DNA from: Liolophura sinensis
Taxonomy: Eukaryota; Mollusca; Polyplacophora; Chitonida; Chitonidae
DNA: 64,000 nucleotides
Direction of reading: 5' to 3'
Assembly: GCF_032854445.1 (NCBI RefSeq)
Contig: NC_088300.1
Location: forward strand, 6,200,001 to 6,264,000
The number at the start of each line of letters is the position of its first letter. The first letter of the stretch is position 1. The translations under genes were made by a program, and so were the position numbers. This document shows, piece after piece, positions 1-57,016 of the stretch. Below the pieces are notes generated by a model. That model saw only the letters and a program-made list of their open reading frames with translations. It was not told where the DNA came from and ran no database searches.

Positions 1-3000
1 CCTAACAGGGATATAGAGACGGTTTGTGTCACTCAATTATGAATAAAGGTGTGTCGCTTTTCTGGATTTTAACTTCATATTCAAGTATGAAATTGGATTT
101 ATCGCTACGCAGTGAACTTGCACCGTAAATAACAAAAGCTCAAAATCAACATGGTTAGAAGCCATGTTGCTTAGGATTCGTCTATGCTTTGATTTAAAAG
201 ATGTTTGCAGATTTTTTCTCTGTGATCTTAACTCCAACATAAAAAACGTACAAGAAGTTGGCAACTGGTTAAACAGTCATGTATATACATTTACTGGTGG
301 AATAAAAAAAGTTGACGTCATAGCTTACCATTAGGTCGCATATAGCACACTACTTTCGTACGCATTACAACAATTGAAACGATTTAACATGGTCTTGTTT
401 TAACCTCGTCACTCATAAAAAATCAAAACACAATATTATTCTATATCTATTAATCAGGAATCAGTGTCTATCAATCACTTACTGATATCGATCAGTTATT
501 TATTGACAAACATGTGGTATCGGTTTCCTTGTAGAGAGGAATGTTTGTTGCTAGGAATATTGAGCTTCAGAAATAGTACGCCCCATGGTTAAGCTATGAA
601 TCTAAGGCTTTTCAGTACAATTTGTACATAGGATACAATTTCCCAAAGTATAAAGAAAGTGCATCACATGAGCTACAGCAAAGCAGATATCACAGCTATA
701 TATGATTCCACTTCTCCGAAACAAAGGGTTTTGTCCGTTGCCTTACTGGAGTAGGGCCTAGGTTCGTACACACGCACCAAATTTAGGAAATGTCACTGAT
801 GCATGTGACATGGAGCTGCTCGAATATTTTCACCACAGACGATATTTTAGATAGAACCCTCTTCCGTAGCCGTTAGCTATTCCGTTACTGGAAAAGTGCT
901 GAGCACGAGGAAAGGTCTTCAATGACTGGACCTGCCTCAAGCTAACTCCAACTGTAATTCATTGACAAATTCTATATAAATGTGTCTATATTCTAGAATG
1001 TTTATGAACCAAACATGAATGTAGTTATTTCAAGTAGCAGACGAACAAAGCGAAAAAATTGTTGGAGAGCAGTGTAATATTTTAACTGATACGGATCATG
1101 GTAAAGAGTAATCAGAACTCCTGATGGCACGAGGCATAGTGGGGGGTGGGGTTCATACTTTTCAGCTAGAAAATCTGCACAATTACGTATTTTTGGGCCG
1201 GGCTAAACGTACCAGTGGGTCAGTTAGTGTAATCTTTCAAGCTATTCGTAATCTATGTGCAAATGTACTTCCATTATGATTGATGACGGTCAGTTTTATG
1301 TGTGGATAGCACCGTTTTTACCTTAAAGACTTCAAGCCCATGAACGCTTTCTTTATCTATCGATAAAAAAGTTACTAACGCCTTTTTAAGTTTTTAAACA
1401 GAATTCGCTTAAACCCACCCTTTAAACTGTCAGGAAACTTCATTTAAGCCCATTACAACCTATAGCAGGGGCGGATCTACAGGGAGGAGGGAGTGTCAGC
1501 CCCCCCCCCCCCCCCAAACGCCCTCGAGAGCTGCGACGAAAAAACAAAATTATAATGGATTTACACCAGAAGAAATAGAATATAACATCAAAAAATTGTT
1601 CTAAATGCAGAATTTGCCTTTTTTTATTATTCAACATTATATATACTTTTCAGGGACGGCCAGGACCCCGTTGTACTTTCCGAGAGTTTTCACAGTCATC
1701 GAGTGCACAACTTTGAACACGATATAGCATTAAACTGCTGTACATGTATCTGTATCTGCATGAAATAGCCTATCTATCGATGTAGCCTGTTTCTCGAACA
1801 TAATGCGGGAAAAGGTGGTATCAAAATTCTCTTCCTTATTGTATAGCCGATAGACCCGTTGCACTTATGATCTATATATTTCTTTTAGAGAGTCACCCAC
1901 ATTCAGCGGTTTGTAAACTCATCCATACTCACTACCAAAATTGCCTTTAGTCATTCACACGTAACAATATAAAGCTCTATGCATTGATATGTTGAACGTC
2001 CATATCATTGCAATGAAAATGAAGCTAGAACACTTTTTCTAATTCATAATGTTAAAGTCCTTAAGCCCGGTTTCGACGGCAAGAGCCCATTTCCTCGGGT
2101 AACGTCAAAAACCACTGGCATGCTGGATATTGGGCGGAGTTCAACATTTTTTCACTAAGGTCGACTCCAGTTACCTGAACTGCTATTGGTTTTACTGTAA
2201 ATCCTGTTTCTAACACTGTCATATTTGAAATTGTTAACACGTTTAGTATTCTATAACTTTGATAAACGAATTTTATTTTATCTCTTGCAGTATACGATCT
2301 CATGACAGTGTGGTTTTAAAGCTGGATATTAGAAAATTTTTTGATAAAGCACAATGTAGTCTATTCGCTGAGAGTGTATTGTAGATGTGTTACTGCGTGC
2401 AATTTCTTCCCACCATATGTTGGTGCAGCTATTGTAAAACAAAGCACTCTCCACGCCCATTCCGCTGCATGCCACTTTTTTTTTAAATAATTATGACGCC
2501 ACCCGATCCAATGCGTTCTTGGCGTCGAAACTGAGCTTTTATGCAGTTTAACAGTATGAACGGAAAAAGTGTTATAATTTGATTTTCGTTGCAAGAATAT
2601 GGACTTCCAACACATCCATGCGTGGAGCTTGTGTTGTTGCGTGTCATGTACTAAAGGCAATTCTGGTATCGAGAATGACTGATCTCACAGAGCGCGGAAT
2701 ACAGGCGAGTCTCTAAAAGAAATAGACTATAGTTACTAACACATCGCAATTTTTGTGTTGTTATCCGCCAGAAGCTTTGACTTCTGCAGAAAGTATGGTA
2801 TATTATTGCCGTTTTACGTAGGGGTACAACATAATCCGGGTGTGAGTTTAATTACTGTGCGACATATAAATGGTTAGATTAAAATGATCCTTCTTCAAAC
2901 AGATTAAGCGCCTACATGATTGATTCTTATTTATCAATAATTGCGCCTGCTTAATTCACAACATTGGCCACTATTATAGGCCTACATTTTTTAAATACAT

Positions 3001-3640
3001 TCGCTTTTTCTTTTCATAAATAACGTCAAATGAGAAAGTATTCAAAATTAATTAAGAATTTTGAAATTCTTTATTATCCATTGATCAGGTAAGACTCTTT
3101 TACGAAGCCTTCAACATAGTGAAAAAAAAATTCAAAGACATACATCTGTGGCTGGAATATAGAAGTTGGGGCCGCAACAGACATTAAAAAAGTCTTTTAA
3201 ACTTTTGTCAGTTTTCAGCTCCGAACTCAACATTGAATGACTGAAAACTCGAATATACAATTTAGGGTCGTGGAGATTCCGGGGCTTACGCTGCCCCTGG
3301 ACCCTCACCTAATGTGTTGGGATAGACTGTTTAACTACCACCTACCCACCCTCACCCGGTCCCTCGCTATTAATCTTTTTCCAGCTTTGTACTCTTTAAA
3401 AGGATACAGAATCGAATTGTTGACAGCCGAGGTAGGGTTCCCTGGGATAAATGTTGCAGCCTTGGTCACGGTTGAATAAACGTACCATACCTAAAATTTA
3501 GCATAGGGCAGATAGTCAGTAACTTGCCTCAGTCCATAGTACGTGGTTTCCCTCTGGAATGTGGTGCCCGCAATCTATTGAAATAAGCGCCGTCGGTCAA
3601 CTGAAATGTTTCGTATCCAGCCCGTTTATTGGTGATTCCT

Positions 3641-3770
3641 ACACAATATACTGGCATTTATATAAAGGCAGGCAGGGTTACGAGTGTATAGAACTCGTGG
3701 TACGATTGCATGAAAATACAGTAGTACATTCTGTACATACCGTCTTTATATAAATGCCAATATACTGTGT
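3641..3770. repeat. 130-bp inverted repeat, possible MITE or hairpin
   Basis: Arms at 3641-3669 and 3742-3770 are about 29 bases long and nearly perfect reverse complements, sharing the core TGGCATTTATATAAAG. The spacer is about 72 bases. Nothing coding is visible inside. It could be a small non-autonomous DNA transposon with long terminal inverted repeats, or a transcribed hairpin; the sequence does not decide. Confidence 0.7.
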
Positions 3771-4019
3771 ACAAAAAATCAAAAACGAATAAACTGATCG
3801 GCGGTAGAGAAAGATCGCCGGTTCCAAAATAAGAATACGTTGGCAGAGGGACTGTTGTACACAACGATTTCTCTAGAATTACTCAAATGACGTGTTGTCA
3901 ACACATTTGATAAGCCCACTGACACATCTTAATACAGGTGGCAATACAGCGGCACAGATAATTTTCAGAAATAAATGTGATTTTATCTTGATCAGATCAC
4001 AAGCAGATGTACATATTTG

Positions 4020-4165
4020 TCAGGATAGAAAACTGGTAATTCCTAACTAGCAAAGGTAATTCCTTTTCACCAAAAGCAGTTCATCAATAACAAATATACT
4101 TCCTTACTACCAAAGGTAACTACTTAATAAAAAGGTAATTCCTTAGTAGCCAAGGTCGCCCTTAA
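4020..4165. repeat. Degenerate tandem repeat
   Basis: Variants of ACCAAAGGTAATTCCTTA recur about five times with drift in sequence and spacing. It reads as an old, decayed minisatellite. Confidence 0.5.
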
Positions 4166-6857
4166 TAACGAAGAACGGTGTCGATGAGTAACTGTTTTAA
4201 GTGAACAGAAGAGCTTCGAGTTTTAAATCTTTTCTCCCTGAAGATGAAAAACGCCCATTGTGTTATGTGAGCTGTCAAAAATAGAGGCACATTTGATCAC
4301 ATTTACAATAACAAGGGCATCTGACAAAAAGTTATTTTGGGTAGACCAACGATGACGAAAATCGAGCTGAAAGTTTGTCAAGAAGTTCCTGAAGGAACGA
4401 GACGTCAGTGTGCCGCGGGAACGCGGTCAACAATTCTGGCCATAGACCCCCCATTGCTTTTCCATAAGCGACAGTGTTAACGTTTAGCACTGTAGCTGAG
4501 TCCCAAACATTCCGTGGCCAATCCCAGCCTGTGAGAAAGAAGCTATAAAAATCTTGACATAGCTTGACCGTCAAAATCTGGACTTTTCTATGCCGGCAGG
4601 TGGGAGGGGTGCCTAGCAACGCCAAGGGAACGTCACTCACAGCCTCATTACCACCTGTCTCCTTGTGTCCTCTCGCTCAGCATTTCAAACTTTCATAATT
4701 AAAATTCATACCTGCAAAAATACCTGACAATTTCCATCATTTTGATACAAAGCATGCACCTGTACACCGAAAATGGTAGGCTGGCAGCGAAAAAAGAATT
4801 TACACCCTAAAATACACATAATTACATTCGGCGGAAGTTGTAATAGGGTACTGTAACCTTCTCAACACTGAAGGTTACCCAACATTTACATGATGTATGA
4901 GGACCATGTTTAACCTCTAGAAACAAAAGCGTTCGAACTCGAAACCCTCCTATTAGTTTAATACTTGTAGTTGTAATCTTGAACGAGCATTTGTCCTTCT
5001 TTGGTTTGGGCTATAGAATGTGTTTTCCCTACGTTTTTTCACGGAGGCGGGATATATCAGGTTTATGACCCGAATGAATGATCACTAATCATTTCGATGC
5101 AAGGTCATCAAAACTAGGCAAAGAGAGATCGTACAAAACCAGCTCACCTTACTTAAGAGCTCCAGTGGTACAGGGGGAATAACTCCACAAAGATTTGGGG
5201 GAAAACATTTCAGATTGTAGTGTGAGGGGTGTCAAATACTGCACATTGTCATCGCACAGGCATTTCCACCTGAAGGATATTGTATCTTAATACAGATTAC
5301 TAGAACACAGTCAATCAATGATTCAAGTACTACAAGAGCTGAGAATATCTTCATTAACGACACTCGCCTTTGTTTGCCAAGCCCGTAGGGCAAAGATAGT
5401 ACGATTGTTATTGACACAAGAGGACATCTAAAATGCAGTGTAAATCTTATTTGATTTTGATGAGAATTCTGACAGCAAAAGTAGAGCATTTCCGGTGCAT
5501 CTGTTAATAAAGAGCAGATAAAAAAGCATATTGCAAACAAAATTTCGATATACACGAAAACCAGTTTAATTATTCTTTTTCCGTGTCATTTTATAAGATA
5601 TTTTCAAGTTAAATATTTTCCAAATCTGAGATGTAAATCGGTTTAGATTATGTCGACCTAAAATATTGAAATTGTTTTCTAAAAATAAAAAATTAAAGTA
5701 TCTATTCAACTATCGTTTGGCGGCACTATAGCATAGTTACCATATTTGAATTACATGTAGGCGGATCAATAGTGCCTGCGTGACTAGTTCAGTCATATAC
5801 TGTTACAAGTACAATAATAGCTTAGCAGGCATTGGCGAACAAATGTTCAGTGATAAATGTAAAGAATGAATGAACCTGTCGCACATGTTTCATTGATCAT
5901 CTTTCTCATACCATGCTTTAATCATATACATTAGTTAGCCAGGTATTTGCAGCTGTTTTTGTGACACGTTGTAGATTATACTTCATGTAGCCAGCTGATT
6001 GTACGTGTTTTGAACCGACTGCACTTTTTAAGAGGGTGTGCTTTTTAGCGAATCACCGTCTTAAACCGCTACGGCCGTAAGTTTGCGAAAACCTTCTTGT
6101 TTGATAAAATTCACGAAACTGCTACGAATGATTGTTAAGAAAGACTTCAGTTGCTGACAATACTGTGGTCATGTTTTCCTGTAACTTTGGAATGGAGGGA
6201 GAGAAAACAAACTGATATTTGATGACAGGAATTAAATGAGGTAGTTGCTGTTCGCTGATTTATCTCATGACCTGACTGATCCCTCTCTCTTGTTAATTTA
6301 GTTTTGTTAACTAATTTGACAGTTTGAGGCCCCATACAATAACGATGTAAAATGTATTCAAAATCCTCCAAAATTTGGGGAACTCAGTGTGCTATTATTG
6401 TACTATTGCAATACATCGCGACAAACGCATTACGATTCTCGCAATTAACTGGGTAGCACCATAAATATTGTAAGAAAAAGGTTAAAAGCACATATTTAAC
6501 ATTTTTTTAGTCAATATGGAGCTAACTAAAACATATTGGATGGATTGGATTTTCTGATATCTTGCTAATAAAGGTTTGTACTATATATTACAATCGCGGC
6601 ACTTCAGTTGTCAGGAAGCGTATATACTAGAAGCTGAAATAATACAAACTGTTAATAGTCCAATACTATGTTCATTCAATGGGCAACTTATATGGCTTAC
6701 CGGTTATTCGGTATGCGTGCGTGTTGGGCTGCCGATTGTTGTGTATGTGGCAATGTTTGACAGAAATTGAAAATCATACAATAATACTGTACCACAGACT
6801 CTTGGGAAATCTGCACCTGTTATCAATACGAAAGAAGCTCATCCTCCTAAAGTATCT

Positions 6858-8187: not shown

Positions 8188-11100
8188 TTACATGTTTACC
8201 TTATTCCAAACAAAGTCCCATTGTCCGTAATAAGACACATTAAAGTTCGTTCCCAGAAAATGCTTTCCAACTGTTCGGTTGAAATGCCATTCTTCTAAAC
8301 AGTCCCTGGCAAAATGTTGGTAATCCCAGTGAAACTTGTTGACAAAAAGATGCGGAAGAGAAGTCAGATAAGGCAAATCAAAAACACCAAAGATGCACAC
8401 TTTACGGACGAATTTCCCGTGACAGGGTTTGCCCTCATGTGACCATGAAATATACCGAGTTAAATATGGATACGTCATCGCGTTGCTTTCGGGTTCACCT
8501 GAAACATGCAAGTACGAAAGAGGTAAGATTTTTTTTTTTTTTTGATTGGTGTTTTACGCCGTACTCAAGAATATTTCACTTATACGACGGCGGCCAGCAT
8601 TATGGTGGGTGGAAACCGGTCAGAACCCGGGGGAAACCCACGACCATCCGCAGGTAGCTGGCAGACCTTCCCGCTCATTACGCTGCGCTAGCGCGCTAAC
8701 CAACTGAGCCACGGAGGCCCCGAAAGAGGTAAGATCACACTTTCCATGTTTCGCTCATGTTTTACTCCCAAAGTACCCTTTACATCTCAGTCACACGTTA
8801 TGCATACGCAGTTTCGTTTACGTATAAGTTTGTCTCCATCGTTATCTGGTATGGTTATAGTGACGTATATAGATTATTCTTAAAGACTGTATTTGTATTT
8901 ATTACGTATAAAATTGTTTTTAATATTATTAACCCAGTCAAAAGTTTTTCAAAAACCAGATGTCTTTCCGGGTTTGACAAGAACGGGGGAATGACTCAGC
9001 TTAGTTCTGTTTAGGCCAGGGCGTGTAATTTGTTATTATTTAAGCATTTAAATACAAAGAAATATAAACATATTTCTGCTGTTAAGCAGTTAGAAAAGAC
9101 CTATGGCGTACATTGCCCCGAAAACATTTAATCCCACTATAATGCTGGCCGCTATCGTATAAGTGAAATATTCTTGAGTACTGCGGAAAACATCAAGTAA
9201 ATAAATTAACCAAAGGATAATGGTAGCGCCTGTTTAAATCGAGTTCCCGATGGCTCAGTATGTCGTGAATTAAAGTGCGAATACAGTACTAAAAAAAAAA
9301 GAAATAAAGAAATAAACATATTTCTTTATACGAATACGTATGATAAATGTGTAATGAATTCCATGTTCGGATATAAAGGCCAGACTCACCTCTATAGGAA
9401 CCGGGAACTCCCAGGTGAGGGTTGTGATTTAACGTTGAGAAGAAGGTCTCGTCCGGCACCCTCGTTCCATTGACCCAATCCAGAAAACACAAAGCCGTCT
9501 GGTTGTGAAGTATGTAATTAACGTAACCCCGGGACGCGGTGATGTGAACATTACCCTGGCTTGGAATGATCCCTTGAGGTGCTGGCAGGTGCTTTTGCCA
9601 GCGTTTAGCTCTCGCCCTGTGAAAATACATAAATGGGGGTGTTGTACTGAAATTGAAATGCAAAGGTTAAAGACTGAGAGAGAAGGGATATAACTGTATG
9701 TAACATTACAGACACCGACGCTGAGGATTGTACTGTCGGAAGCTCGGTGAAGCTACTTTCGGAAGCTGATTGTACGAAGCTTTCTGATTCTTTTTATTTC
9801 GGAAATCTTACGCGTTTATTGCCTTTCATGAAGCATTTATGGTACAAAGCGCATGTTTAAATGATGACAGATGGCCGAAGTGCTCGATTTAAGTCAAGAG
9901 GCTTGCTAGGTACCTGGCCAAGGCCCGAAGTTTCTTCTAGGCACTCCGGTTTCCTCTAGGCATTCCGGTTTCCTCCGGCTATACTTCATAGAATGTAATG
10001 TAAGTCATGTAACTGACAACTAAACACCAATCAATCAATCAAATGACAGCGAAAGGTAAGCGACATTGAACAAATAAAATCGAGTGCCCCTAAAATGCTG
10101 TACAGAAGGTCAGTTCTGTTCGATATTTTCGTTTTCCTCATATAATTCGTCGGATTTTTTTCGTCATGGCCAGTAATACGGAAAAGGTGACGTGGAAAAT
10201 CATGGCTATGGCCAGTAACTGAATATGGTAATTATGCTCAGTTTTCATTTCACTTAATAAAAATGTAACGTTCCGCTTCAAATTGCGTTAAATACCAAGC
10301 CTGTAAACCAAATGCATTGCGACTGTGCTGTGTCTTGAAGCTTTAAGTGCAATTACCTTTTCCTTGTCCCTTCGATGTTATTGGCTCCTTTGTACGCCTT
10401 AAGAATCTCCACCAATTCCAGGTTCGTTCTCAGTGGGAACTCTTGTCCAGTCAAGTTTATGAAATATTTCCAGTTTTTGTACGGCCAGAGTTGCCTCATA
10501 CAGAGCAGGTCTGGCTCCAGCACGGTGGAACATCCCCAGCGAACTGTGACAGGATTCCGGACGATGAACACGTTGTGAAAGCAGCGGGCTATGGCCGACA
10601 TTCCCTCGTGAAGGATCTGCGGTGACTTTTTATCCACATGTATGCAGTAATGATTCTGTGGCTGATAAATGGCTCTCAGAAGTCGCTCAGATTGTTCGAT
10701 GTCTTTGTACATCAGGACGCTGAAGGCTATCGGGAATTCTTCCTCTGCGGAACTTAGAGGGTCAGTTGCATATCCTCTGAACAACTTAAACTCGGTGCAG
10801 TTCCTGCTAAGTTTGAGGTAATCTTCACCAGAAAGTGTCTTCCGGGCTTCCCGTTTCATAACATCTTGTGCTTTTATTTTCTCCTTTATGTCTCCTCGTA
10901 TCAAAGCGTTGCAGTCCACATGTGTTACAACGGGATGACCAATGAGGTCAGGCGAATTGGACGAATTTGACTTCTTTTTTGTCTTATTAGAGATCGCGGT
11001 TTTGACCTTGATGGAAGTCTCAAAGTGCACTGGTTTCGCCTGCAGTCTGGCTTCAGTCCTGTTTTCGACGGTGATTATTGTCTGTGACGCCACCACTTCG

Positions 11101-18600: not shown

Positions 18601-21600
18601 TATATAAACAAGGCCATTGGTTCCAAGCCGCATTAAATTGTAACTTACAACTATTTTCATGTTTCAGCTGGCTGAATAAATCGTACAAAAATAAATCCTT
18701 AAACAATGGTCAGTTCCACGCGATGTAAAGATAGACCCCTTCACGTGCGAAAAAAAGCTTGGCGGTTGCAATATGAGCAGGTAATATTTCACAACTGGTA
18801 TATGGCTTACTTCCGGTCTATGTTTCTTCAGGTAATTGCGAAGGTCCCCAAGTGGGCAGTAGTCCATGATTAGGCAGATATTCGGACCCTGTGTACAGCA
18901 ACCCAGCATGCTCACCACATTGGGATGATAACCTATCTCCTTCATAAGGTCGATCTCCAACAACAGGTCTCGCTTTTCGTCCTCAGACGCTAGATGCTCT
19001 TCATAGCGCCATGCAGAACAAGTGATAAAGATGGCAGAACAAATTATAAAGATGGCAGAACAAATTATAAAGATGGCAGAACAAATTATAAAGATGGCAG
19101 AACAAATTATAAAGATGGCAGAACAAATTATAAAGATGCAGAACAAATTATAAAGATGGCAGAACAAATTATAAAGATGCAGAACAAATTATAAAGATGG
19201 CAGAACAAATTATAAAGATGGCAGAACAAGTGATAAAGATCGCAAAATAAGCGATAAAGGGTACAAAATCTTAAGGGAACCTGAATAGCTTACAGGTGTA
19301 TTCCAACTATCTATTGTGCATCAATGTCAGATATTAAGGTGGGTTGTTTGGACTACATTAAGAGTGTCAGTTTTGTGAATCCATTGGCTGTGTTTCTTAT
19401 CTGGAACAACAGTTTTGTCGGAATAGTATTTTAAGTTGCCCAGATTGCCACTGGTAGCTGCTTATAAAGAAACGTCAATACGGCAATAAAGTTTATACGA
19501 CGATGCAGATATGGAATTGATGGTCTTCGTTAAAATTATGATTAGTATAGGCACAGTAGGTTTGCTAATACCTCGAGTCATTTTTATCGCCACAAAGTCG
19601 TCAGAAATCTTGATGGGTCCATTAAGAAGCTGGGCTTTCATGACTCTACCGAACGCCCCTTCCCCGATCAGCTCGAGGAGACTAATGTCCTCCCAGCGTA
19701 CTTCATACCCGTCCCTCACTAAACACGGGTAGTCTATCACTATTTCCGGGATGTCCTCAAACCCATACAGAGGATTTACCTCCTGAAAATGAAAGTTAAA
19801 GCGGTAATTTAAGACTTAATACTTTAGCGGTTGTTAAACCCTGGCTTTCTTGTTGTGATATGAGTAAAAATGTCGAACAAAAAAGGTCTGAAGATGTACA
19901 CATCGTTCTCGAAGAAGAACTTACCCGCAAACAGGTAAATTTCTGCTGTCCCACCTCCGAAATCTGCTTCCTCCTCCACCGTATTAAAAGCACAATAACC
20001 AGAACCACGGAGGACAATACCACTGGTCCAACTACTAGAGAAATAATGTACGTGGTATTACTCAGATCGGTAGAATCTGCAACAAACAGAATACAAGGCT
20101 GAAAGATCTGTCTTTAAAAGTTATACTTGTCCCTTGCTTACATGCATCTATAGTCACGGTGAAGCAGAGAGTTTGCTCATGACTGGACTGGTGATCAAGG
20201 TAAAGTACCATTTGTGACGTGTAATTAATATTCATTAAGATAATTAACATAAAATAATTCAACGAAATTTAGTAAAAATGTTAACTTGGGACAGTATTAT
20301 AAAAAGCTCATTGAAATATATCTTAAAACCATTAGACTGTTTGTCCTCCTCGAATATCAAAATGGATACAGGTCTACAGGAAAGAGAAAGATTTATTTGA
20401 TTGGTGTTTTACTCCATACTCAAGAATATTTCACTTATACGACGGCGGCCAGCATTATGATGGGTGGAAACCGGGCAGTTCCCGGGGGAAACCCACGCCC
20501 ATCCCCAGGTTGCTGGCTGACCTTCTCACGTACGGCCGGAGAGGAAGCCAGCATGAGCTGGACTTTAACTCACAGCGACCGCATTGGTGAGAGACTCCTG
20601 GGTCATTACGCTACACTAGCGCTTTAACCGACTGAGCAACGTCATAATCTAAACGCATCTAGGTCTACTAAGTAATGCAAAGAAATCAACATTTACACTC
20701 GGTTATACAACGAACTTATCGACTTACTTGGTGAGTTATCATATTGTTTAGACGCGCCAAGGTGAAAAGAATTTTCCCCACCTGTGAAATGGAAAAGTAT
20801 TTTCCAAAGGTTAAGAAACATTTTTTACACGAATCCCAATAGGTCTACCAATAAAATGCATTGGTAGATCAAACCTTTTGGACAAGTGCGAAATCACTGC
20901 TTGGAATATATGTTCAATGCATGGAATGTTGGAATTGAATTTATGTTATCGTGTTGTTCAAAAATATAAAATGTTTATGAAATAGATTTTGCGCTAGATT
21001 TGATGAAACAGCCATCAACATTCTTACCTATTGGCAGGACAAGTTTACTGGGGAGACTGGTACCTCCAAGCGTCTGGGCCCGAACCCAGACGGAATACAT
21101 ACTGTTCATATGAACTCCTCGAATTATTAAAGAAGTCTGATTCTGCAAGATTAAGAGGTGAGGAATGCTTGAAGAAATTCTTCCTTGGAATTCTACTCAC
21201 ATTTGTGGAATACTCTAAAGTTCATGCCAGGAACGTACACAGAAAATTTACTCGTTTATTTAATTGTCGTTAAACGCCATACTTATCAATGAAAGAATGA
21301 ATGCTTGGGGTTTTGTGTCGTACTTAACAGTTTTTCAGTCACATGACGAGGAGTCAATAAGTGTGCACATATACTGTGTCTTCTTGTGGCAGGGCGAGTC
21401 CATGCCGCCAAAGTGCTGCCCCCACTGAACTATCATGTCGAAGACAGACATGACACCCCATTTAGTCAGATTATACTGACACCGGGCCAATCAATCGGGT
21501 TTCCTAACCTCTGAGTGCTGAGGTCAAGCGAAGCAGCAACAAGTGTCATTTTAAAGTCTTTGGTCTGACCCGACCCGGGTTTGATCCCTTGTCTCCTGAC

Positions 21601-30117: not shown

Positions 30118-30202
30118 AAGCCCATGGTCGTGGGTTTCCCCCATCATAATGCCGGCCGCCGTCGTATAAGTAAAATATTCATGAGTACGGTGTAAAACAC
30201 CT
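30118..30202 (+). mobile_element. SINE family 1 fragment, interrupted by a younger copy
   Basis: Central and tail part in plus orientation (ATAATGCCGGCCG through GTGTAAAACACC). Its AT-rich tail was the target of the insertion at 30215. Confidence 0.85.
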
Positions 30203-30214
30203 ATCAAACAAATA

Positions 30215-30484
30215 TTTATTTATTTATTTATTTGATTGGTGTTTTACTCCGTACTCAAGAATATTTCACTTATACGACGGCGGCCAGCATTATGGTGGGT
30301 GGAAACCGGGCACAGCCCGGGGGAAACCCACGACCATCCGCAGGTTGCTGTCAGACCTTCCCACTTACGGCCGGGGAGGAAGCCAGCATGAGCTGGACTT
30401 GAACTCACAGCGACCGCATTGGTGAGAGGCTCCTGGGTTATTACGCTGCGCTAGCGCGCTAACCGACTGAGCCACGGAGGCCCC
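30215..30484 (-). mobile_element. SINE family 1, full length, nested in an older copy
   Basis: Complete element with tail at left and tRNA-like head at right. The 12-base duplication ATCAAACAAATA lies at 30203-30214 and 30485-30496, inside the tail of the older plus-oriented copy. Confidence 0.92.
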
Positions 30485-38885: not shown

Positions 38886-41023
38886 CTTGTGTAGCAAGGG
38901 TACATCTATGCAGTGTATATTATGCAATACATGTTCAGATGCACATCTACATATATGTTAATCATCCAGTTTGGTTAGAGATGAGAGATTTGTGTCATTG
39001 TAATCCAACCTCGAATTCTGGTTGGGGATTATGCAAAAGAGGCAGTAATTATGATGCATACATCCTGACAGAGTGCAGAACCTGACCCATTACTCTGAGT
39101 TATGTACAAGGATATAGGAAGATTTAAACCCAGTTTTTACACCAGTTTTGAAATCAGAGCAAATATCATCTAACAACAAATCTGCCATTTGTACAACTAC
39201 ATAACATAATTCTTCTAATATTTAGGATAGATATTAGTAGTGCTGAGAGCAGAATATTACATTTCTTTCCCAGCTTTTTGAGATATGAGTATGTTGTTCA
39301 TTAGATGGCCTAACCATGTGAGAAAAAAGAAACTAAATATTCCTGCTAGAGTTACATGTATTTTGACTAAAAAGAGCAGACCGGGTGTCCCAAACAGCAG
39401 AAGAAACAGGTTATATAGGTGTATATTCCAGTACTTACAGTATTACTAGATTATAAACCTATGGTGGGCCATGTATAATACATACATGTTCATGTAGTAC
39501 TGCTTACATGTGTAAGTGCTGGTAGAACCATTGCTATAGATCATGGTTATATATCACATATACAGAGCCTTTGGGGGATAGGCCCAGGGCTGATGGAGTT
39601 GGTGTCAGTAGGCCATACATGAATTGGTCAACAAGGCCTGTTGCCCTCAATCAAATTTAACTATCTTGAAAGGAATGAAACTGTAAACCCTTTTAAAGCC
39701 AGGAAAGGAAATATACAGGAACACTGACATGGAGGAAGGGTTCACAGGTCTCTCATGTACACATACAGAGCATTTAGGGGATAGGTCTGTGACCTAATGG
39801 ACTGGTGGAGCTGGTGTCCGTGTACATGTACGTGTGAGTGAATTAGTAATGAACCATGCTAAGCATAACCAAAACAAGACACAAGTGTGTTTGTGAAAAA
39901 AAAACAGTATTCTGGAAAGTTATTTTCAGATATCTCATTTTCCTTTTTCCATCCATCTCTCTGTCTACATGTATATATTACTGCTATCAACAAAGACAAT
40001 TTTTGATTGCCAAAAAGGCACCAAAAAATATCTGATTGAGCTACCAGGAATTGTAATTTTTTTGTGTTTTTTTTCCCTTTATATAGTTCTGGAATGTTTG
40101 TACATGTAACTGTGTTTAACACTGTGTTCACTTTTCTGTAGCCTTAACACAGCTACATGCACATCCATACATCCTGAAATAAAAACTGGGCTAAAAGCAT
40201 GGTGATATAAAATAAATCAACAAATACAAGAATAGCAACATAAAAGTACACATAAGCTCCTGCTAAATTATGAAGTGTTTTAGCAGAAACTTGAGAGGAC
40301 ACATGCTTAAGATGGGTACTGTTCATGACACATACACATGTACACATGTACAATACATATACACTGGTTTACAGAATGTGTAAACAGAATTACATGGACA
40401 AGATTTACAGGCTTTATCCATTAAGGTAATAGCAACCCATAAAACTGGAGATCTCCCTTGCCCAAGTGCAATACCATGTTTATTTTTATATCTTTTTGAA
40501 GTTGAGTGATGAAGTCAAAAGTATTTCACTCATATATATATACAGTTTTAGGGATGGATGGAGCTGGAGTGGCATTAGTAAACCACTTGCCCTTGGCAAA
40601 TATCTGACCAACTTTCCCTCATGTGACAGGATTTTGCCTACAGAGCCAGCCCAATGTCTAAACCATATTGGTGGAATGGTGAAAATTCATGTGAAGCACA
40701 TTTAACAGTCACATGAGAGCTGTTCATCGCTTTTTGCCATCTATGCCATGAGAGCGACAAAGGCACAGGAATCTTGAGTAGATCATTTTTAACTTTCAGC
40801 CAGATTCATGTTGTCAAGATCTATAACACGTAAATTCTTTACTAGATCCACTTGTACATATATACAAGATGAAAACTGAATATGTCAGCTCTTACTACTT
40901 TGTCTCAGGCAGTATTTGTGCACAAATTACATGTACATATACACAAATCTTTTATATACAAAAGTGAATCTTCTGTCACCATTGGACATTTTATAATAGT
41001 AAGTGTAGCAATAGAATACATGT

Positions 41024-41490
41024 GTTAAATTGGTAATGAACCTGCTGTTTATTCCTCATTTTCAGGTTGATTTGAGGGTGACTTCACACCCTCAAATTGG
41101 TGTTAAATGTTAAATTGGTAATGAACCTGCTGTTTATTCCTCATTTTCAGGTTGATTTGAGGGTGACTTCACACCCTCAAATTGGTGTTAAATGTTAAAT
41201 TGGTAATGAACCTGCTGTTTATTCCTCATTTTCAGGTTGATTTGAGGGTGACTTCACACCCTCAAATTGGTGTTAAATGTTAAATTGGTAATGAACCTGC
41301 TGTTTATTCCTCATTTTCAGGTTGATTTGAGGGTGACTTCACACCCTCAAATTGGTGTTAAATGTTAAATTGGTAATGAACCTGCTGTATATTCCTCATT
41401 TTCAGGTTGATTTGAGGGTGACTTCACACCCTCAAATTGGTGTTAAATGTTAAATTGGTAATGAACCTGCTGTTTATTCCTCATTTTCAG
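41024..41490 (+). repeat. 85-bp array repeating the 3' splice site of the first CCDC142-like coding exon
   Basis: TTCCTCATTTTCAG followed by GTTGATTTGAGGGTGACTTC recurs at exactly 85-base steps: candidate exon starts at 41066, 41151, 41236, 41321, 41406 and 41491. Only the last runs on into the open frame. Copies are nearly identical, so the array is young. Each of the five upstream units also holds an 11-base perfect stem (ATTTGAGGGTG and CACCCTCAAAT, 6-base loop) directly after the splice site, which the final copy lacks. Confidence 0.95.
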
Positions 41491-41516
41491 GTTGATTTGA
41501 GGGTGACTTCACTCCC

Positions 41517-47500: not shown

Positions 47501-50500
47501 ATAGGTGAAAATAGAATTCAGTTTCACATCGCTGACTTATTTGACAACATGGAATTTACTGAAAACAATTCTAAATAAAAAAGAGAGTAGATTTAAATAT
47601 AGTTTTAAGTGTTTTTTCCAGGCTGTGATTTGTTAAGTGTAAACTTGATTTCTGTATAAAACATCCATTAGATAAAGGTTCTTTCTTTTTGCATTAAGTC
47701 AGGACTGAAGTTGCATGTTTATCGTGATATCATATCTCTATACAAGGGAGTTTTACAATATTATTTACAGGATTATGTCGAGCCCTGGGATCATTTGTGA
47801 CTGACAAGTTTTACCCCTGCCCCCTGGTGACGGGCGACTACAGCACAAAGACAGGGATGCTGCTACGGGACACATTCCAACCCCTCCACTGTGCCCTGAC
47901 AGATCAGGCTGTTGGGGAGAAACTTACCAGTAAAGGTCAGTATATCTTCACATACCGCTATGCTACAACTTGTAGGTCTTGCCATGTATAACATGCTTTA
48001 TTGAGCAAATATTTTGAAGATATCATGTATGTAGATAAGAAAATCCTACTTTTAACCTACAAGATTTTAATCTTCAAAGAGGAACCATGGGTACATCCTT
48101 ATATGCACATGTACAATTTTAACTTTTAATATTTAATCATTACGACATGGCTGATAAAACAATGTCAATGTGACTTTCAATCCCTATCATTAATTTGTAT
48201 GAGACTTTAGCTCTTCATTTTCAGGTAAAGTTTATATGACTTCAGGTGGGCGTAAATCCTTTCATGTTAATTAGTTATAACTGTTTGTCTACCAGTGCTT
48301 GTGTCAGTCAGAGTCATCCTGTTGTTGTTGTTGCCCAGGGGCCATACCCAAGCCGCGACCAGACCTGTGGGTTGTTGTGAAGCTAGCATCTCGCCTGCTG
48401 TCCACATGTCACACGGCCCACCTCTGGTGTTACTCCAAAACCTACCAACTGTTGGCTTCCTGGTCTATAGGCTCCTTCCTGCTGGTCACCCAGACTGACC
48501 TCAAGGTTAGATTACCTACAAACACCCATCTGTTTCAATCAGAGTTGCTGTGCAATTGCTGAGAAATACATACATATAAATAGATCTCTTCTTATGTACT
48601 TCAGATGCACCATAATGATATCTTTTAAACTTTTTGAACACATCTATCTTACACAAATAAATATAAACATATATATATATGACTATATATATACATAAAC
48701 ATAATAAATGCAAGTTAGAGTTTCTGTTCAACCACATGAAGTTGTGTGTTTGACACTCACTTCTTGATTAAGAAGATGATAGCTTTGATTTTGTTGGTAT
48801 CAAAGTTTCCATGCATAAAATAGGGGGGATGTTTGCACACTTTAAACTTGAAACTATTGGAAAGTTGTATAGTATCCATTTTATGAGTGGTACAAGATAT
48901 AAATGCTCTGCCTTTATGTGATTGCTCTAAAATAAGACGTTCACAGACTCTCACATATATATGCTATTGTCACTTTGATTTACTGTTCTTCAAAATCTTT
49001 GTTGTTGATGACCAACAAACAAAAAGATCATTGTTAACAAACACAGGGGAAATGCTTGAGTCATTTTCTTCTCAAAGTATTCTCTTTCTTGTATTTGTGC
49101 TTCTGTCATATTTCTGTCAAATTGAGAATGAACCAAATCACTGACATCAAGACAAAGGTTTGGTTGACTGTTGAGGTGTTTGTGTGTTGCAGATGTTGGC
49201 TGATGAGACAGCACACGGAGTTCGGCTCACACAGACCTTGTTAAACCTGATCATCGGGAGCTCTGGCATCCCGTTACAGAATCCCCTGGCTCAAGAGCTG
49301 GCTTCTCTAAATCAGCAGCTTCAGGACATCAGTGGTCAGCTACAGGTACACCAGCATCAGGCTTCGGGATAGCCTTTTGTGTAAAAAAAAAAACATACAT
49401 CTTTCACAGACAGTGGCTAGAACAAGTTGTTCTCATGTGTGATTATCATATCATATCAGTCTCAAAGTAAGATGTTACTAAGACCATTTATTATGTGTTG
49501 TAATTATAAACTAATTTGTAATTATATACGTCTTTTTTGTTTCATAGCTGATCTTTATTTTTTGTTCAGGCAACATGCAATAAAGTCAGTCTTTTAAACA
49601 TACATTTGCCACCACATCTATACTCTGAATTCAATACATTAGAAGTGTTGATAGTAACATACGCCCATTACTTTTACCACTTGACTTCTGATTTGTTCAT
49701 AGTATGTTGTTTGTTTTATCAGACACTGTCAGGAGCTGCAATGAAGCTGTTTGGGGAAAAGTGTCGCAGCAAATCTTCACAGGTATTCCAAGATGTCATG
49801 CCTCCTGGCAAAACATGGAAAAGGAGAACATCGGAAGGTAAGGAGACGTACAGTTATTCTTTGCGGATTGTGGTGTTGTCAGGGGATAGGAGTGGTGATC
49901 TTTGCAGATTGTGGTGTTGTCTGGGGATAAGAGTGGTGATCTTTGCGGATTGTGGTGTTGTCAGGGGATAGGAGTGGTGATCTTTGCGGATTGTGGTGTT
50001 ATCAGGGGATAGGAGTGGTGATCTTTGCAGATTGTGGTGTTGTCCGGGGATAAGAGTGGTGATCTTTGCGGATTGTGGTGTTGCCAGGGGATAGGAGTGG
50101 TGATCTTTATACACTTCAGCAACTAGGCTCTCTCAAAACAAACACTTCATATTTCTGTATTCTTGACCAGCTTTGTATACAATATCTAAATTATCAGAAA
50201 TATTCTAATGAATCAGACAATAAAAACTATCCAAGGGTATATTTCCTATTTTCATCTCAACTAAGCTGTCTATTGTACCTGTACAAGTTAGCTATAAACT
50301 ACTAATTTTGTCTCCAGCTTGAATTTATGAAGAGTGTTGTGCCTTTTTCAGGGCATCCTACCAAGCACAGTGCCTATGTAGAAGAGGCAATAGACTGTAT
50401 CCTTGAACCTGTCTTGGAAGGTGTCAACAAATTAAAGTCCACTTCCCAAGTAGGGGTCATTTCCATTGCAACAGTGGCTATGTGTGAAGCATGGACGGAA

Positions 50501-53500
50501 TTCATCTTAAAAGAAAAAATCAAATTTAGGTAAGATTATAGATGTATTTATTCATGGACATTTATGTTTATGGGTCTTACTTCTACTGCATGGACTCTAT
50601 GATACAGGTTAAAGATGAGTGGCAAAGGTTTTGATCTAAAACTGAAAGTTATCAGAGTAAATACAGAGTGAGGATATTATATGGCTTGTTCCCCTTGGAT
50701 TTTGGAATGTCGTAACACCAAAGTGGCTCTTGTTCATAAATCTGATTGACAGTGTATGTCAGCATGTAGTTGTTAGACTGTGTACATAAAAATATAGAAC
50801 ATTGGCATAATAACCTGCATTATGATCTGTTTAACCATGATGTTCTGTAAACTTCAGTCTGTGTTGTTGTTGGATTCATATAGAATGTGGCATTTGATTT
50901 TTGTGGACATATCTGCATTAATGTTTCAGTGTGGACAAAGCCTATCACCTGGCTGCAACATAAGACTTGGCATATCTCTAGCATGTATAAGTTGTTGTTC
51001 CAATTGAGTGTCAGTATGAAAGAATACTTTCAGCTGGCATTAACTTGTTGTTGCATTTGTGTTTCAGTGTGGATGGCGCCTATCGGCTGGAATTTTGATT
51101 TGACAAACCTGTCTGTAGTCAGTATAACCCTGTAGGATTTGTGTTTCAGTGTGGATGGCGCCTATCAGCTGGCATTTTGATTTGACAAACCTGTCTGTAG
51201 TCAGTATAACCCTGTAGGATTTGTGTTTCAGTGTGGATGGTATCTATCAGCTTGCATTTTGATTTGACAAACCTGTCTATAGTCAGTATAACCCTGTAAG
51301 ATTTGTGTTTCAGTGTGGATGGCATCTATCAGCTGGCATTTTGATTTGACAAACCTGTCTGTAGTCAGTATAACCCTGTAGGATTTGTGTTTCAGTGTGG
51401 ATGGCGCCTGTCAGCTGGCATTTTGATTTGACAAACCTGTCTGTAGTCAATATAACCCTGTTGGATTTGTGTTTCAGTGTTGATGGAGCCTATCAACTGG
51501 CATTAGACTTCAGGTTTGTACGCACCTGGCTTAGTGAGTACATTGCGAACGACGAGGTCAGACAAAGTGTCCTTGAACTCACCGTATTTCGTAAATTAAA
51601 TGGAATCGTACAGCTGTTGATGAAGCAACCCAAAAAGAAATCTCAGGATACTCGCTCTATTGATGATATTAGTAAGTTATCCCCCTTCCTTGAATAAATA
51701 CTCTTAAATTTATCATGACTTAACATACGAAAATAGCATCTTGACTATATTCTACGCCGTCAGCCTGCAATTAATTTGTGTTGTTGAGTCAATATGCCAG
51801 TCATGATCATGATCTAGCCAGAACAGCTTAGATATCCACTGTGAACACCCACCCAACCAGGACAGTATAGATCTCTACTGTGAACACCCACCCAGCCCGA
51901 ACAGCATAGATATCCACTGTGAACACCCACCCAGCCAGATCAGTACAGATATTGACTTTGAACACCCACCTAGGCAGAACAGCATATATATCCACTGTGA
52001 ACACCCACCCAGCCAGAACAGTACAGATATCGACTGTGAACACCCACCTAGCCAGAACAGCATAGACAACCACTGTGAACACCCACCCAGCCAGGATAGT
52101 GCAGATCTCCACTGTGAACACCCACCCAGCCAGAACAGCCTAGATATCCACTGTGAATACCTACCAAGCTAGGATAGTACAAATATCCACTGTGAACACC
52201 CACCCAGCCAGGACAGTATAGATATCCACCTTGAACACCCACCAAGCCAGAGCAGTACAGATATCCACTGTGATCACCCACCCAGACAGGACAGTACAGA
52301 TTTCCACTGTGATTACCCACCCAGCCAGAACAGCATAGATATCCACTGTGAACACCCACCCAACCAGGACAGTATAGATCTCCACTGTGAACACCCACCC
52401 ATCCAGAACAGCATAGGTATCCACTGTGAACACCCAACAAGCCAAGACAGTACATATATTTGCTGTGAACACCCACCCATCCAGACCAACATAGATATCC
52501 ACTGTGAACACCCACCAACCCAGAACTGTACACATATCCACCATGAACATCCACCCAGTCAGAACAGCATAAATGTCCACTGTGAACAACCACCAACCCA
52601 GAACAGCATAGATATCCACCATGAACACCCACCCAGCCAAAACAGCATACATGTAGATACAGTGTATTGTGACATATATTGTAAATATAGCTGGCGTGAG
52701 AATTTTCCTCCAGTTGACTGATTTCAGACTTTTTGTTAGAAATTTGAGAAACAAAAAAGCAGCTGGGTTCATGAGAAAAGGATTAATAATGTAATTTGGA
52801 GATATAGTAAGTTTTATTCAGGCTTTTTGGAGAAACTTCCCTATTTGCTTTTTCTGACCATCAGTTCCCATGCCTGATATAACCACCGTGAACGGTCACT
52901 GAAGGAGAGCGTGTGGTATCATCAACTGACAATTCATCCAGCTTTGTATGGCCGTTTAAGGTTTCGGCCAGGGTCTAATCTCATCTTCCACTATCTAAGC
53001 AAATGGGAAGTCATAAAACTCCTTCCCACATGTAAGAAGATGGTCCGGAGTTGTGAACTCATTTGTTCTTTTTCACATCACAATTATCAATGCGTGTGTG
53101 CTCATAAAACATATATGTAGTCCACACACAATGCAGCATCATTGGGAAAACAATGCGTTCTGCTGTTAATTGGACCGTTTGTGTAGCTCATCCTTGAGTC
53201 TCAAATTGGTAAAGGCTTAAGAAACTGGTTTATATCCTAGGTTGCTGTAAGGCCCATAGTCTGAGATTTAAAGATGTTTAGAAGTTTTTAAGCAATTCCG
53301 TTCGAGTGCATTTCATGCAACAGACAAACACTTGAAAGGTATCAAACTGTTGTTCCTGATTTGAAAACATTCATCTGTAGTCTCTAAAAGAGTAATCTCT
53401 TGTGATTTTTGTGATTTTTTTCTCTCTACAGACTGTGATTCCAGCCTACACTCAGAGAGCACCCATGGCAGTTTGGAGGTGGTTGCTTCACAGACCCGAC

Positions 53501-53643
53501 CATCAGTCCCCAACCTGCAGAATAGTCAGGTAGAGGACTCTGACATGAATCATGTACAGCACATTGACTCCTGGCTCGCTCTCAGACTTCATGGGTCTAC
53601 ACGCTGGAAACTCTCCTCTTGTTTTACTGGTGATCCCTCATAA
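41517..53643 (+). CDS. CCDC142: CCDC142-like protein, eight coding exons
   Basis: Exons: 41517-43191 (acceptor at 41490), 47771-47935, 48339-48505, 49193-49345, 49723-49837, 50352-50529, 51478-51671, 53432-53643; 952 aa, phases 1,1,0,0,1,2,1. The ATG at 41517 has good context (CCCATGG). An in-frame TGA lies 24 bases upstream within the same exon if the acceptor at 41490 is used, so the start is probably real and the intron before it lies in the 5' UTR. The protein is mostly helical, with no signal peptide or membrane span. C-terminal segments AYQLALDFRFVRTWLSEYI (exon 7) and DSWLALRLHG (exon 8) suggest the poorly characterised CCDC142 family; the name is from recollection of that family and is the weakest part. 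A low-complexity basic/Pro segment lies near residues 455-475. Function is unknown. Three exon edges are embedded in tandem repeats. Confidence 0.82.
43726..44195. repeat. 57-bp minisatellite open in frame on both strands
   Basis: About eight copies of a unit with CACAGGATCCTATTCACCAC and CCGTCCATGACACAGGTCAC, in intron 1 of the CCDC142-like gene. As 57 is divisible by three, it creates reading frames of over 100 codons on both strands (19-residue repeat). Nothing suggests they are genes. Confidence 0.93.
45874..45901. repeat. (CTGG)n microsatellite
   Basis: About seven uninterrupted CTGG units, in intron 1 of the CCDC142-like gene. Confidence 0.9.
49859..50109. repeat. 41-bp minisatellite after CCDC142-like exon 5
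   Basis: About six copies of a 41-base unit containing GATTGTGGTGTTGTCAGGGG, starting 22 bases after the exon 5 donor at 49838. The intron is only 514 bases, so the array fills half of it. Confidence 0.93.
51055..51477 (+). repeat. 82-bp array repeating the 3' splice site and first codons of exon 7
   Basis: GTGTTTCAG followed by TGTGGATGGCGCCTATCAGC recurs at exactly 82-base steps: candidate exon starts at 51068, 51150, 51232, 51314, 51396 and 51478. Only the last continues as exon 7. Upstream copies encode the same VDGAYQLA start and then stop (TGA), so use of a wrong copy would truncate the protein. A more diverged relative of the unit lies at about 50926. Confidence 0.95.
51816..52645. 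repeat. 39-bp minisatellite, about 21 copies
   Basis: Units of CCACTGTGAACACCCACCCA and AGCCAGAACAGCATAGATAT repeat through most of intron 7 of the CCDC142-like gene. As 39 is divisible by three, the minus strand shows Gly/Trp/Val-rich frames of about 200 codons, which I treat as spurious. Confidence 0.93.
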
Positions 53644-53850
53644 CTTTATCTAAACTGTGAACAGACCTCATAGCAAAACTCTCCTCTTGTTTTACTGGTG
53701 ATCCCTCATGGCTTTATCTAAACTGTGAACAGACCTCATGGCAAAACTCCTCTTGTTTTACTGGTGATTCCTCATAACGTCTAAACTGTGAACTGACTTC
53801 ATGGTGAAACTCTCCTCTTGTTTTACTGGCAATCCCTCATAACTTTTCAA
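53605..53850. repeat. 68-bp tandem repeat covering the CCDC142-like stop codon
   Basis: The last codons and TAA of exon 8 (CTCTCCTCTTGTTTTACTGG on to CCCTCATAA) are copied about 3.5 times into the 3' UTR, at 53611, 53679, about 53745 and about 53805, with increasing differences. Confidence 0.88.
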
Positions 53851-55529: not shown

Positions 55530-57016
55530 CACTGAACAAAAATATAAACGCACGAACAAATATTTTCTGTTATTTTTATGTCACAAAATATAGTACATAT
55601 CCCAAAACAATGGGACATATTTCTGAACAATTCAGCTTTAATTTGCGAGCATTGCAATCAATTCTCAAGCAATAGTCCTGCAGTAATGGCAGGAAGAGGA
55701 CAATGGGGGTCAATGGGCCAAGTTCACAGACGTCAGTAACGCGTGTGACCACCATTAGCCTCGCGTAGAGCTGTACACCGGCGACGCATGGATATCACCA
55801 AGTTGTCAATTGTGGGCTGGGGGATGTTGTCCCAGTCCTCCTGGAGTGCCACTCGCATTTGGCGAATGTTCTGGGGAACTGGAACCCGGTGGCGGACACG
55901 CCTATCCAGAACATCCCAGAGGTGTTCAATGGGTGACATGTCTGGTGAATACGGCGGCCAGTTGAGGACAGGAATATCCTCCTCCTCAAGGAAGTCCCTG
56001 CATATCCTGGCAGTGTGTGGGCAGGCGTTGTCGTGTTGGAAAGTCAAATGATGGAGCACCACAAAGGGGGCAACAATAGGTCTAAGGATTTCATCTCGGC
56101 AACGTTGTTGAAATGCAGACGTGTGCGCTGTCCATGACAAATGCCTGCCCACACCATGACACTTCCGCCACCATAAGCCACCCATCGCAGGACATTAGCG
56201 TCAGCATACCGCTCACCAGCACGGCGCCAAACCCGAACTCTGCCATCAGCATGGTGCAGCTGGAAGCGAGATTCGTCACTAAAGAGCACAGTCCTCCAAC
56301 GAGCAAGTGTCCAGCACACATGAATATTGGCCCAGTCCAGTCGTGTCCGACATCGGGCTACCGTTAGGTCGATGCCCTGGTGTGGTCGACGTGACCGGAG
56401 ATGAGCCTCCCGCAGCCGGTTCCTGACTGTCTGGGCTGAAATCCACCTGTTGTGAAGACCGACAGTCTCATCAGCAGTTCTGGTTGCTGGGCGGGTCCGA
56501 TCACGCAGGTGTTGGAGCCGCATGTGCTGGTCTCGTGCGGGCGTGGTCACACGTGGCCGGCGGGCATGTGCGCGGTTGACTGTGGTACCAGTCTCTCTGA
56601 AGCGAGTCCTCAGGCGGCTGATAGTGGAATGATGCACATTCAGTTGGGCTGCCACAGCAGTAACAGATAACCCAGCATTAAGCATGCCAATGGCACGCTC
56701 CCTCATGATTTGTGGCATGTCGGCATGTGGCACAAATCCACACTTTGGGGTGGCCTTTTACTGAGCAAGCTGTAAGGAATGTCTGCGTGTTGCTCACGCA
56801 CACTGACCATCGCACTGTCACGCCCCATTGGTCACATGGGTTGACTTTTTCAGCATACGAGTATACCCACTCAGAATGGTCATTTGCAATGGGACCACTT
56901 GTGTTGTGCAACACGAAGGACCCATTAAACAAATATATCACTGGTTTGACCATTTCCAAATAATGGTCAGTTTGACTTGGATATATAGGTTGGTGCGTTT
57001 ATATTTTTGTTCAGTA
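55530..57016 (-). mobile_element. Tc1-type DNA transposon
   Basis: Terminal inverted repeats of about 23 bases, ACTGAACAAAAATATAAACG plus CAC, lie at both ends and are flanked by TA dinucleotides (55528-55529 and 57017-57018), the normal Tc1/mariner target. The internal transposase reads on the minus strand. The element lies between the CCDC142-like gene and MFSD13A. These termini and the transposase resemble Tc1 elements that I recall as abundant in salmonid and other fish genomes. Confidence 0.95.
55733..56733 (-). pseudogene. Tc1 transposase, frameshifted
   Basis: Frame 1 (56733 to about 56100) carries the N-terminal helix-turn-helix region (MRERAIGMLNAGLSVTAVA, then STISRLRTRF), a second DNA-binding domain and the first catalytic Asp in FSDESRFQLH. 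A second frame then carries QHDNACPHTA with the second Asp, WPPYSPDMSPIEHLWD with the Glu, and the terminal GGHTRY before the stop at 55733. All three DDE residues are therefore present. The break lies near 56100-56115, where a few codons also seem to be missing relative to the family. The copy is probably inactive but not ancient. Confidence 0.92.

Follow-up and report, generated by a model that had tools for sequence, protein, structure and literature searches.

Which acceptor does splicing use when the start of an exon is repeated six times in tandem, and what becomes of the other copies? The question is raised by exon 7 of the gene CCDC142 in the chiton Liolophura sinensis, which lies in the window considered here (the 64,000 nucleotides of contig NC_088300.1 from 6,200,001 to 6,264,000; coordinates below count from its first letter and refer to the plus strand unless stated otherwise). 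Exon 7 is real coding sequence. Eight GT-AG exons give a single frame of 952 amino acids that matches the Pfam family CCDC142 (PF14923) with an E-value of 4.7e-72, and the 65-residue peptide of exon 7 alone matches PF14923 with an E-value of 1.2e-13. The exon extends from 51478 to 51671 (194 nt), and its splice partner, as judged from the frame of the joined exons, is exon 6 at 50352 to 50529. Intron 6 is 948 nt long and intron 7 is 1760 nt long.

The boundary between intron 6 and exon 7 is occupied by a tandem array at 51055 to 51504, for which TRF reports an 82-bp unit in 5.5 copies with 94% matches and a score of 788. Each unit holds about 27 nt of the exon 7 head and 55 nt of intron-like sequence, TTTGTGTTTCAG being followed by the exon-7-like part, and TTTCAG stands directly before six starts, at 51068, 51150, 51232, 51314, 51396 and 51478. 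According to alignment and translation, the first five are decoys and the sixth is the authentic acceptor. A preliminary description of this DNA had claimed six copies of the exon start at these positions, with the acceptor and eight codons duplicated, and both points are borne out (the codons being about eight in number).

When joined to exon 6, all five recent decoys run into a TGA, as the preliminary description had also said, and do so after nine codons, while the sixth acceptor gives an open frame that continues as SVDGAYQLALDFRFVRTWLSE; the frame and the PF14923 match carry on only from 51478. Since 82 equals 27 × 3 + 1, the unit shifts the reading frame. The decoys read SVDGAYRLEF (decoy 1, 51068 to 51098), SVDGAYQLAF (decoy 2, 51150 to 51180), SVDGIYQLAF (decoy 3, 51232 to 51262, and decoy 4, 51314 to 51344) and SVDGACQLAF (decoy 5, 51396 to 51426), in each case followed by the TGA. 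The exact peptide VDGAYQLA, which had been ascribed to every decoy, is present in the one at 51150 only, the other four having one or two altered residues.

The array consists of this recent side, which adjoins exon 7, and of a decayed older side. The latter comprises about 1.6 units at 50917 to 51053, found by local alignment, the site matrix and reading of the sequence. Its local score is 82, which none of 300 dinucleotide shuffles reaches (maximum 55). One acceptor of these older units, at 50930, has its AG intact but a weak score of 5.99, and by reading it gives SVDKAYHLAAT and then TAA. Further upstream the traces fade: for the piece at 50810 to 50915, compared with the 82-bp unit, 5 of 300 shuffles are as good, and with the authentic segment as query the best upstream match, at 50802 to 50904, is equalled by 38 of 300. 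Among the five recent decoy units, pairs differ at 2 to 9 of the 82 positions, and 11 columns in total are variable. None of these falls in the acceptor core from −13 to +8 (0 of 22 columns, as compared to 11 of 60 elsewhere; Fisher p 0.03 for a region picked post hoc). The exon tail of the decoys is more variable (changes at 7 of 18 columns and, outside the tail, at 4 of 64; p 0.0016, also spotted post hoc); two of its variable columns make up a CpG, where deamination may have played a part.

It is important to consider whether the copy number could have been inflated in the assembly, a scenario that we regard as extremely improbable. The coverage is modest, 14x, but the HiFi reads behind the assembly (GCA_032854445.1) have a mean length of 8,347 bp according to the available part of the report (PMC11068029), far longer than the array, which makes it unlikely that the 450 bp are an artefact. 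In addition, the five recent decoys differ from each other at the columns mentioned above, and many independent arrays of a similar sort are present in the genome. The absence of the array from a long-read assembly had been named beforehand as the outcome that would count against it; in this HiFi assembly the array is present. The same part of the report states that the assembly was purged of haplotypic duplications, so that one haplotype is represented. The species was first given as Liolophura japonica, which has since been corrected to L. sinensis (PMC12441733). The phylum is in line with eight mollusc-haemocyanin matches that follow one another elsewhere in the genome, one unit of which matches solved haemocyanins. 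A lancelet host was considered and rejected; the GFP family, too, gave no match, a negative that carries little weight.

A dispersed repeat as the source of the unit was also considered and rejected. In a non-exhaustive search of the genome (609,464,459 bases in 632 contigs), 31 matches to 50530 to 51700 were found, and the 30 other than the region itself all fall at query positions 79 to 232 (about 50608 to 50761), which is outside the array.

We now turn to the strength of the competing acceptors, which was scored with acceptor and donor matrices trained on exon edges from the same genome. The authentic acceptor has a score of 10.03 (percentile 47 of the acceptors in the survey described below), decoy 1 has 10.68, and decoys 2 to 5 have 8.84, 8.84, 8.39 and 8.84. 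No further AG occurs in the 29 nt that precede the splice AG of the authentic site; this AG-free stretch measures 32 nt for decoy 1 and 12, 12, 11 and 12 nt for decoys 2 to 5. Branch points usually lie within the AG-free zone. The equal strength of the upstream acceptors suggested by the preliminary description does not hold (8.39 to 10.68 against 10.03, and 11 to 32 against 29 nt): the competitors are unequal, with four of the five recent decoys handicapped by an upstream AG and decoy 1 free of it. Only 4 of 141 survey acceptors have an AG-free stretch of 12 nt or less. On the other hand, 4 of the 6 other CCDC142 acceptors have one of just 15 to 18 nt, so 11 to 12 nt may be a mild handicap. 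The 55-nt tail of the authentic site carries two private changes, at −28 and −16, each of which removes an AG; from the aligned copies, the AG may have been lost at the authentic site or gained in the decoys. The donor of exon 7 is weak, with a score of 3.87 (percentile 6), below the GT sites inside the units (4.38 to 4.54), which are themselves at or below percentile 8 of the survey donors. Another option considered was that the decoys are hidden by folding. This was rejected, as the mean unpaired probability from −20 to +3 is 0.26 to 0.50 for the five decoys and overlaps that of the authentic site (0.48).

Structures of this kind are known from amphioxus. Minisatellite-like duplications of intron/exon boundaries, called mirages, were in print by 2010 (PMC3087553); the available text of this and a later report places them in Adh3, the globins BflGb6 and BflGb9 and troponin C (PMC3087553, PMC3902484), with PGBD5 added in the latter, and describes them as normally spliced, the Adh and troponin C cases yielding no aberrant mRNAs according to the accessible part of PMC3902484. 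In BflGb6, the 3' end of the intron and the 5' part of the exon are repeated, with 6 and 3 units in two haplotypes (excerpts of PMC3087553). Like these, the chiton array is built of boundary-spanning tandem units with many decoys that keep their AG or GT. Judged from the sequence, the exon 7 array fits every feature of a mirage that was tested: both sides of the boundary are in the tandem unit, the authentic boundary lies at the exon end with the duplicates in the intron, and the AG is retained in all five recent decoys, as it is in the five at exon 1, the AG or GT being kept in 121 of the 127 survey decoys (both described below). The differences from BflGb6 are the unit length (82 bp versus 150 to 160 bp), the mollusc host, the gene CCDC142 and the fact that the array is known from genome sequence alone. 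Furthermore, CCDC142 is one gene with two unrelated acceptor arrays, unlike the amphioxus cases. No boundary-spanning minisatellite of a mollusc was found among the literature matches listed. They include an intronic minisatellite that is polymorphic in an abalone TSSK1-like gene (PMC6905558), for which the text available mentions no overlap with a splice site. What is new here is a mirage-type array in a mollusc together with a first rough estimate of frequency; the kind itself is already known. The survey sample described below also suggests that mirages occur in animals other than lancelets.

As to which acceptor is used, it is probable that the array is a neutral mirage and that the exon-proximal acceptor is picked by exon definition, helped by AG exclusion; the splicing part of this explanation we infer. 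The array would have originated by tandem duplication of a segment spanning the intron 6/exon 7 boundary, and would have expanded as a minisatellite through at least two rounds of growth, on the side of the intron. Splicing would then use the last acceptor, at 51478, because recognition of exon 7 would proceed from the donor at its downstream end across the exon. From this acceptor the exon measures 194 nt, whereas the five decoys would give hypothetical exons of 604, 522, 440, 358 and 276 nt. An additional handicap of decoys 2 to 5 would be an AG located between the probable branch point and their acceptor. If a decoy were used now and then, with decoy 1 as the best candidate, this would lead to the stop after nine codons and presumably to mRNA decay; the decoys would have no function of their own and would presumably be ignored by the cell.

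A precedent for such a choice comes from minigenes in which two identical 5' splice sites compete and the exon-proximal donor is used exclusively; where the flanking introns are long, preference goes to those sites that are nearest across the exon (both from the available part of PMC9225289). These minigenes resemble the chiton locus in having identical competitors between long introns, and differ in that the chiton repeats an acceptor, six-fold, and does so naturally. The acceptor rule in the accessible text of PMC9225289 is weaker than the donor rule, which counts against our explanation: donors clearly follow the cross-exon rule, but acceptors of the long-intron class show only a significantly reduced upstream preference. 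The explanation is also challenged by the low score of the donor of exon 7 and by the higher score and clean AG-free stretch of decoy 1.

In a different scenario the first or strongest acceptor wins, by transcription order or local strength, such that splicing goes mainly to decoy 1 and leaves much of the transcript unproductive. Among the recent decoys, decoy 1 is the first to be transcribed, and its score is the highest in the array; under the classical cross-intron rule an upstream acceptor is preferred (PMC9225289, in the part available). However, only 51478 lets the frame and the conserved domain continue, and acceptor arrays also precede conserved exons of other genes (L015, L019 and L045), which leaves this scenario very unlikely. 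At these three arrays most decoys have AG-free stretches like that of the authentic site, which rules out AG exclusion as the general rule.

Another possibility is that the decoys, or mini-exons of 50 nt, are used often enough to tune CCDC142 through nonsense-mediated decay. Every recent decoy has a usable-looking acceptor and an in-frame TGA, as expected of a poison exon in which use of the alternative site brings a premature stop, and a GTCAGTA donor follows the decoy acceptor after 50 nt, the GT of four units outscoring the exon 7 donor. The invariant acceptor core given above points in the same direction, but with its region chosen post hoc, and the low variation may be due to chance or recency. 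Decoys 2 to 5 have a nearby upstream AG, the occurrence of unrelated units at unrelated genes fits background mutation, and the amphioxus reports say that no aberrant mRNAs are formed (PMC3902484, as far as its available text goes). Taken together, such unproductive splicing is unlikely. Nor do the copies look like mutually exclusive exons, each of which would be complete, as the reading stops after nine codons and the internal GT sites are weak.

Finally, the array could be an intermediate of intron gain, with a decoy exon piece being recruited as a new short exon. This model was put forward for mirages, as applied to the amphioxus globins (PMC3087553, in the part available), but at this locus it is highly improbable, since there is a stop in all five recent decoy pieces and the length of the unit is not divisible by three. 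In Drosophila, introns have been gained via tandem duplication of AG/GT proto-splice sites (PMC2891723, accessible text). There, as in the chiton, extra splice signals come from tandem duplication; the chiton duplicates span an existing boundary and create no new intron position.

Exon edges were also surveyed elsewhere in the genome. The survey covers 200 exon matches in 54 pieces (260,853 bp) from the myosin, ABC, kinesin and dynein families; the matches used (68 of 81 for myosin, 2 of 19 for ABC, 65 of 66 for dynein AAA_8 and 65 of 132 for kinesin) were chosen where exons lie close together. An edge was flagged when more copies of the 40 bases centred on it occurred within 2.5 kb. The edges follow from profile matches and the site matrix, and pieces with short flanks can miss arrays. 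In the full set 14 of 367 edges were flagged, 5 acceptors and 9 donors, of which three were set aside. At L006 1795 the same myosin profile positions are matched twice; the two similar exon starts, at about 1190 and 1795, lie 603 bp apart and are probably alternative exons. At L059 3566 and 3722 the match repeats the profile positions of the preceding exon, so that the picks lie inside an array.

This leaves 11 of 367 edges with arrays, 3 of 181 acceptors and 8 of 186 donors (p 0.22 for the difference between donors and acceptors, or 0.07 for the 7 and 1 with both sides repeated). A first pass over 70 exons had given arrays at 3 of 69 acceptors and 5 of 52 donors, and a strict set, with the 46 of 200 matches that have an internal stop removed, gives 3 of 141 and 5 of 139; in both, the acceptors include L006 1795. 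At 8 of the 11 edges both sides of the boundary are repeated in at least one copy, while at L015, L028 and L045 it is mainly the intron side. All 127 copies lie on the intron side. The AG or GT is intact in 121 of them (95%, as compared to 85% for neighbouring dinucleotides, the copies not being independent), and in 72 the score equals or exceeds that of the authentic site, so that the tolerance of decoys looks general in this genome.

Control positions 40 nt inside the exon are flagged at similar rates (3 of 181 and 6 of 186, and 3 of 70 for exon centres), so the edges are no hot spot. Positions 300 nt into the intron are flagged more often (21 of 172 and 18 of 173), as are non-exon positions in the first 20 pieces (289 of 1674). 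Exon edges are poorer in repeats than introns (p 2e-15), as expected if many boundary arrays are selected against.

Some individual arrays can be mentioned. At L015, a run of about 50 copies of a 31–32 bp unit, broken by an N gap, extends from about 1200 to 3000 and reaches the start of a myosin exon; 47 copies have an intact AG and 41 score at least as high as the authentic acceptor. One myosin gene at L012 has two donor-side arrays (5678 to 6233 and 8219 to 8743) with 16 and 7 decoys, the GT being present in all 23. At L059, units of 62–73 bp at about 2042 to 4101 follow a kinesin exon and repeat the coding sequence of the exon end; there are 26 copies around the donor, 23 of them with GT, and a later profile match looks like one copy.

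CCDC142 itself contains a second acceptor array, at 41023 to 41516, which like the older units at 50917 to 51053 goes beyond the array of the preliminary description. TRF and the site matrix give an 85-bp unit in 5.8 copies (99% matches) with six acceptors, the last being that of the first coding exon at 41491; five of the acceptors score 12.81 and one 10.45, and the splice AG is intact in all five decoys. A relationship between the 82-bp and 85-bp units was rejected, the best local match being 9 bases. An inverted repeat of 11 bp (ATTTGAGGGTG/CACCCTCAAAT) can be read in the 85-bp decoy units and is absent from the authentic copy. At the survey rate, the chance of two acceptor arrays in one gene is p 0.07 for 15 edges or 0.007 for 8 acceptors, in a gene that was selected for having an array; the occurrence of two is somewhat above expectation with this reservation. 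With a second array in the same gene, arrays at 11 of 367 sampled edges and the amphioxus precedent, the exon 7 array is not singular.

A wider reading, which we put forward tentatively, is that boundary-spanning minisatellites occur at the scale of the whole chiton genome, at a few percent of edges and at both exon ends, with their signals left intact because exon-proximal choice makes the decoys nearly neutral; a minority may serve unproductive-splicing control. If so, CCDC142 and similar genes would form a natural panel of replicated competing-site experiments, acceptor arrays, a hard case under current rules, included, and public RNA could read it out at once. The choice between near-identical sites has been studied with engineered minigenes and human alternative sites (PMC9225289, from the text available), and the arrays at exons 7 and 1, together with the eleven surveyed edges, offer natural counterparts in a single animal for which RNA-seq from five tissues exists. 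The arrays separate three ideas, namely distance across the exon, transcription order and AG exclusion. Because four of the recent decoys are handicapped and one is free, an ordered leakage is predicted: if there is leakage at the decoys, it should be much greater at 51068 than at the four copies that follow.

The window contains several other repeats. Within CCDC142, a 68-bp array at 53608 to 53846 (TRF and sequence) includes in its first copy the last codons and stop of exon 8, a minisatellite of 41 bp × 6.1 at 49858 to 50108 begins about 20 nt past the exon 5 donor, and another in intron 7, at 51816 to 52649, has 39 bp × 21.4. In a gene on the minus strand, a 21-bp array of 11 copies (19013 to 19244) lies immediately upstream of an exon with ASEDEKRDLLLEIDLMKEIG, which we take to resemble a receptor tyrosine kinase. 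Downstream of CCDC142, at 55733 to 56757 on the minus strand, there are transposase-like reading frames, presumably of the Tc1/mariner type. A similar frame (FDWCFTPYSRIFHLYDGGQHY) occurs three times, within 8343 to 8657, 20336 to 20590 and 30174 to 30425, and is probably a dispersed repeat.
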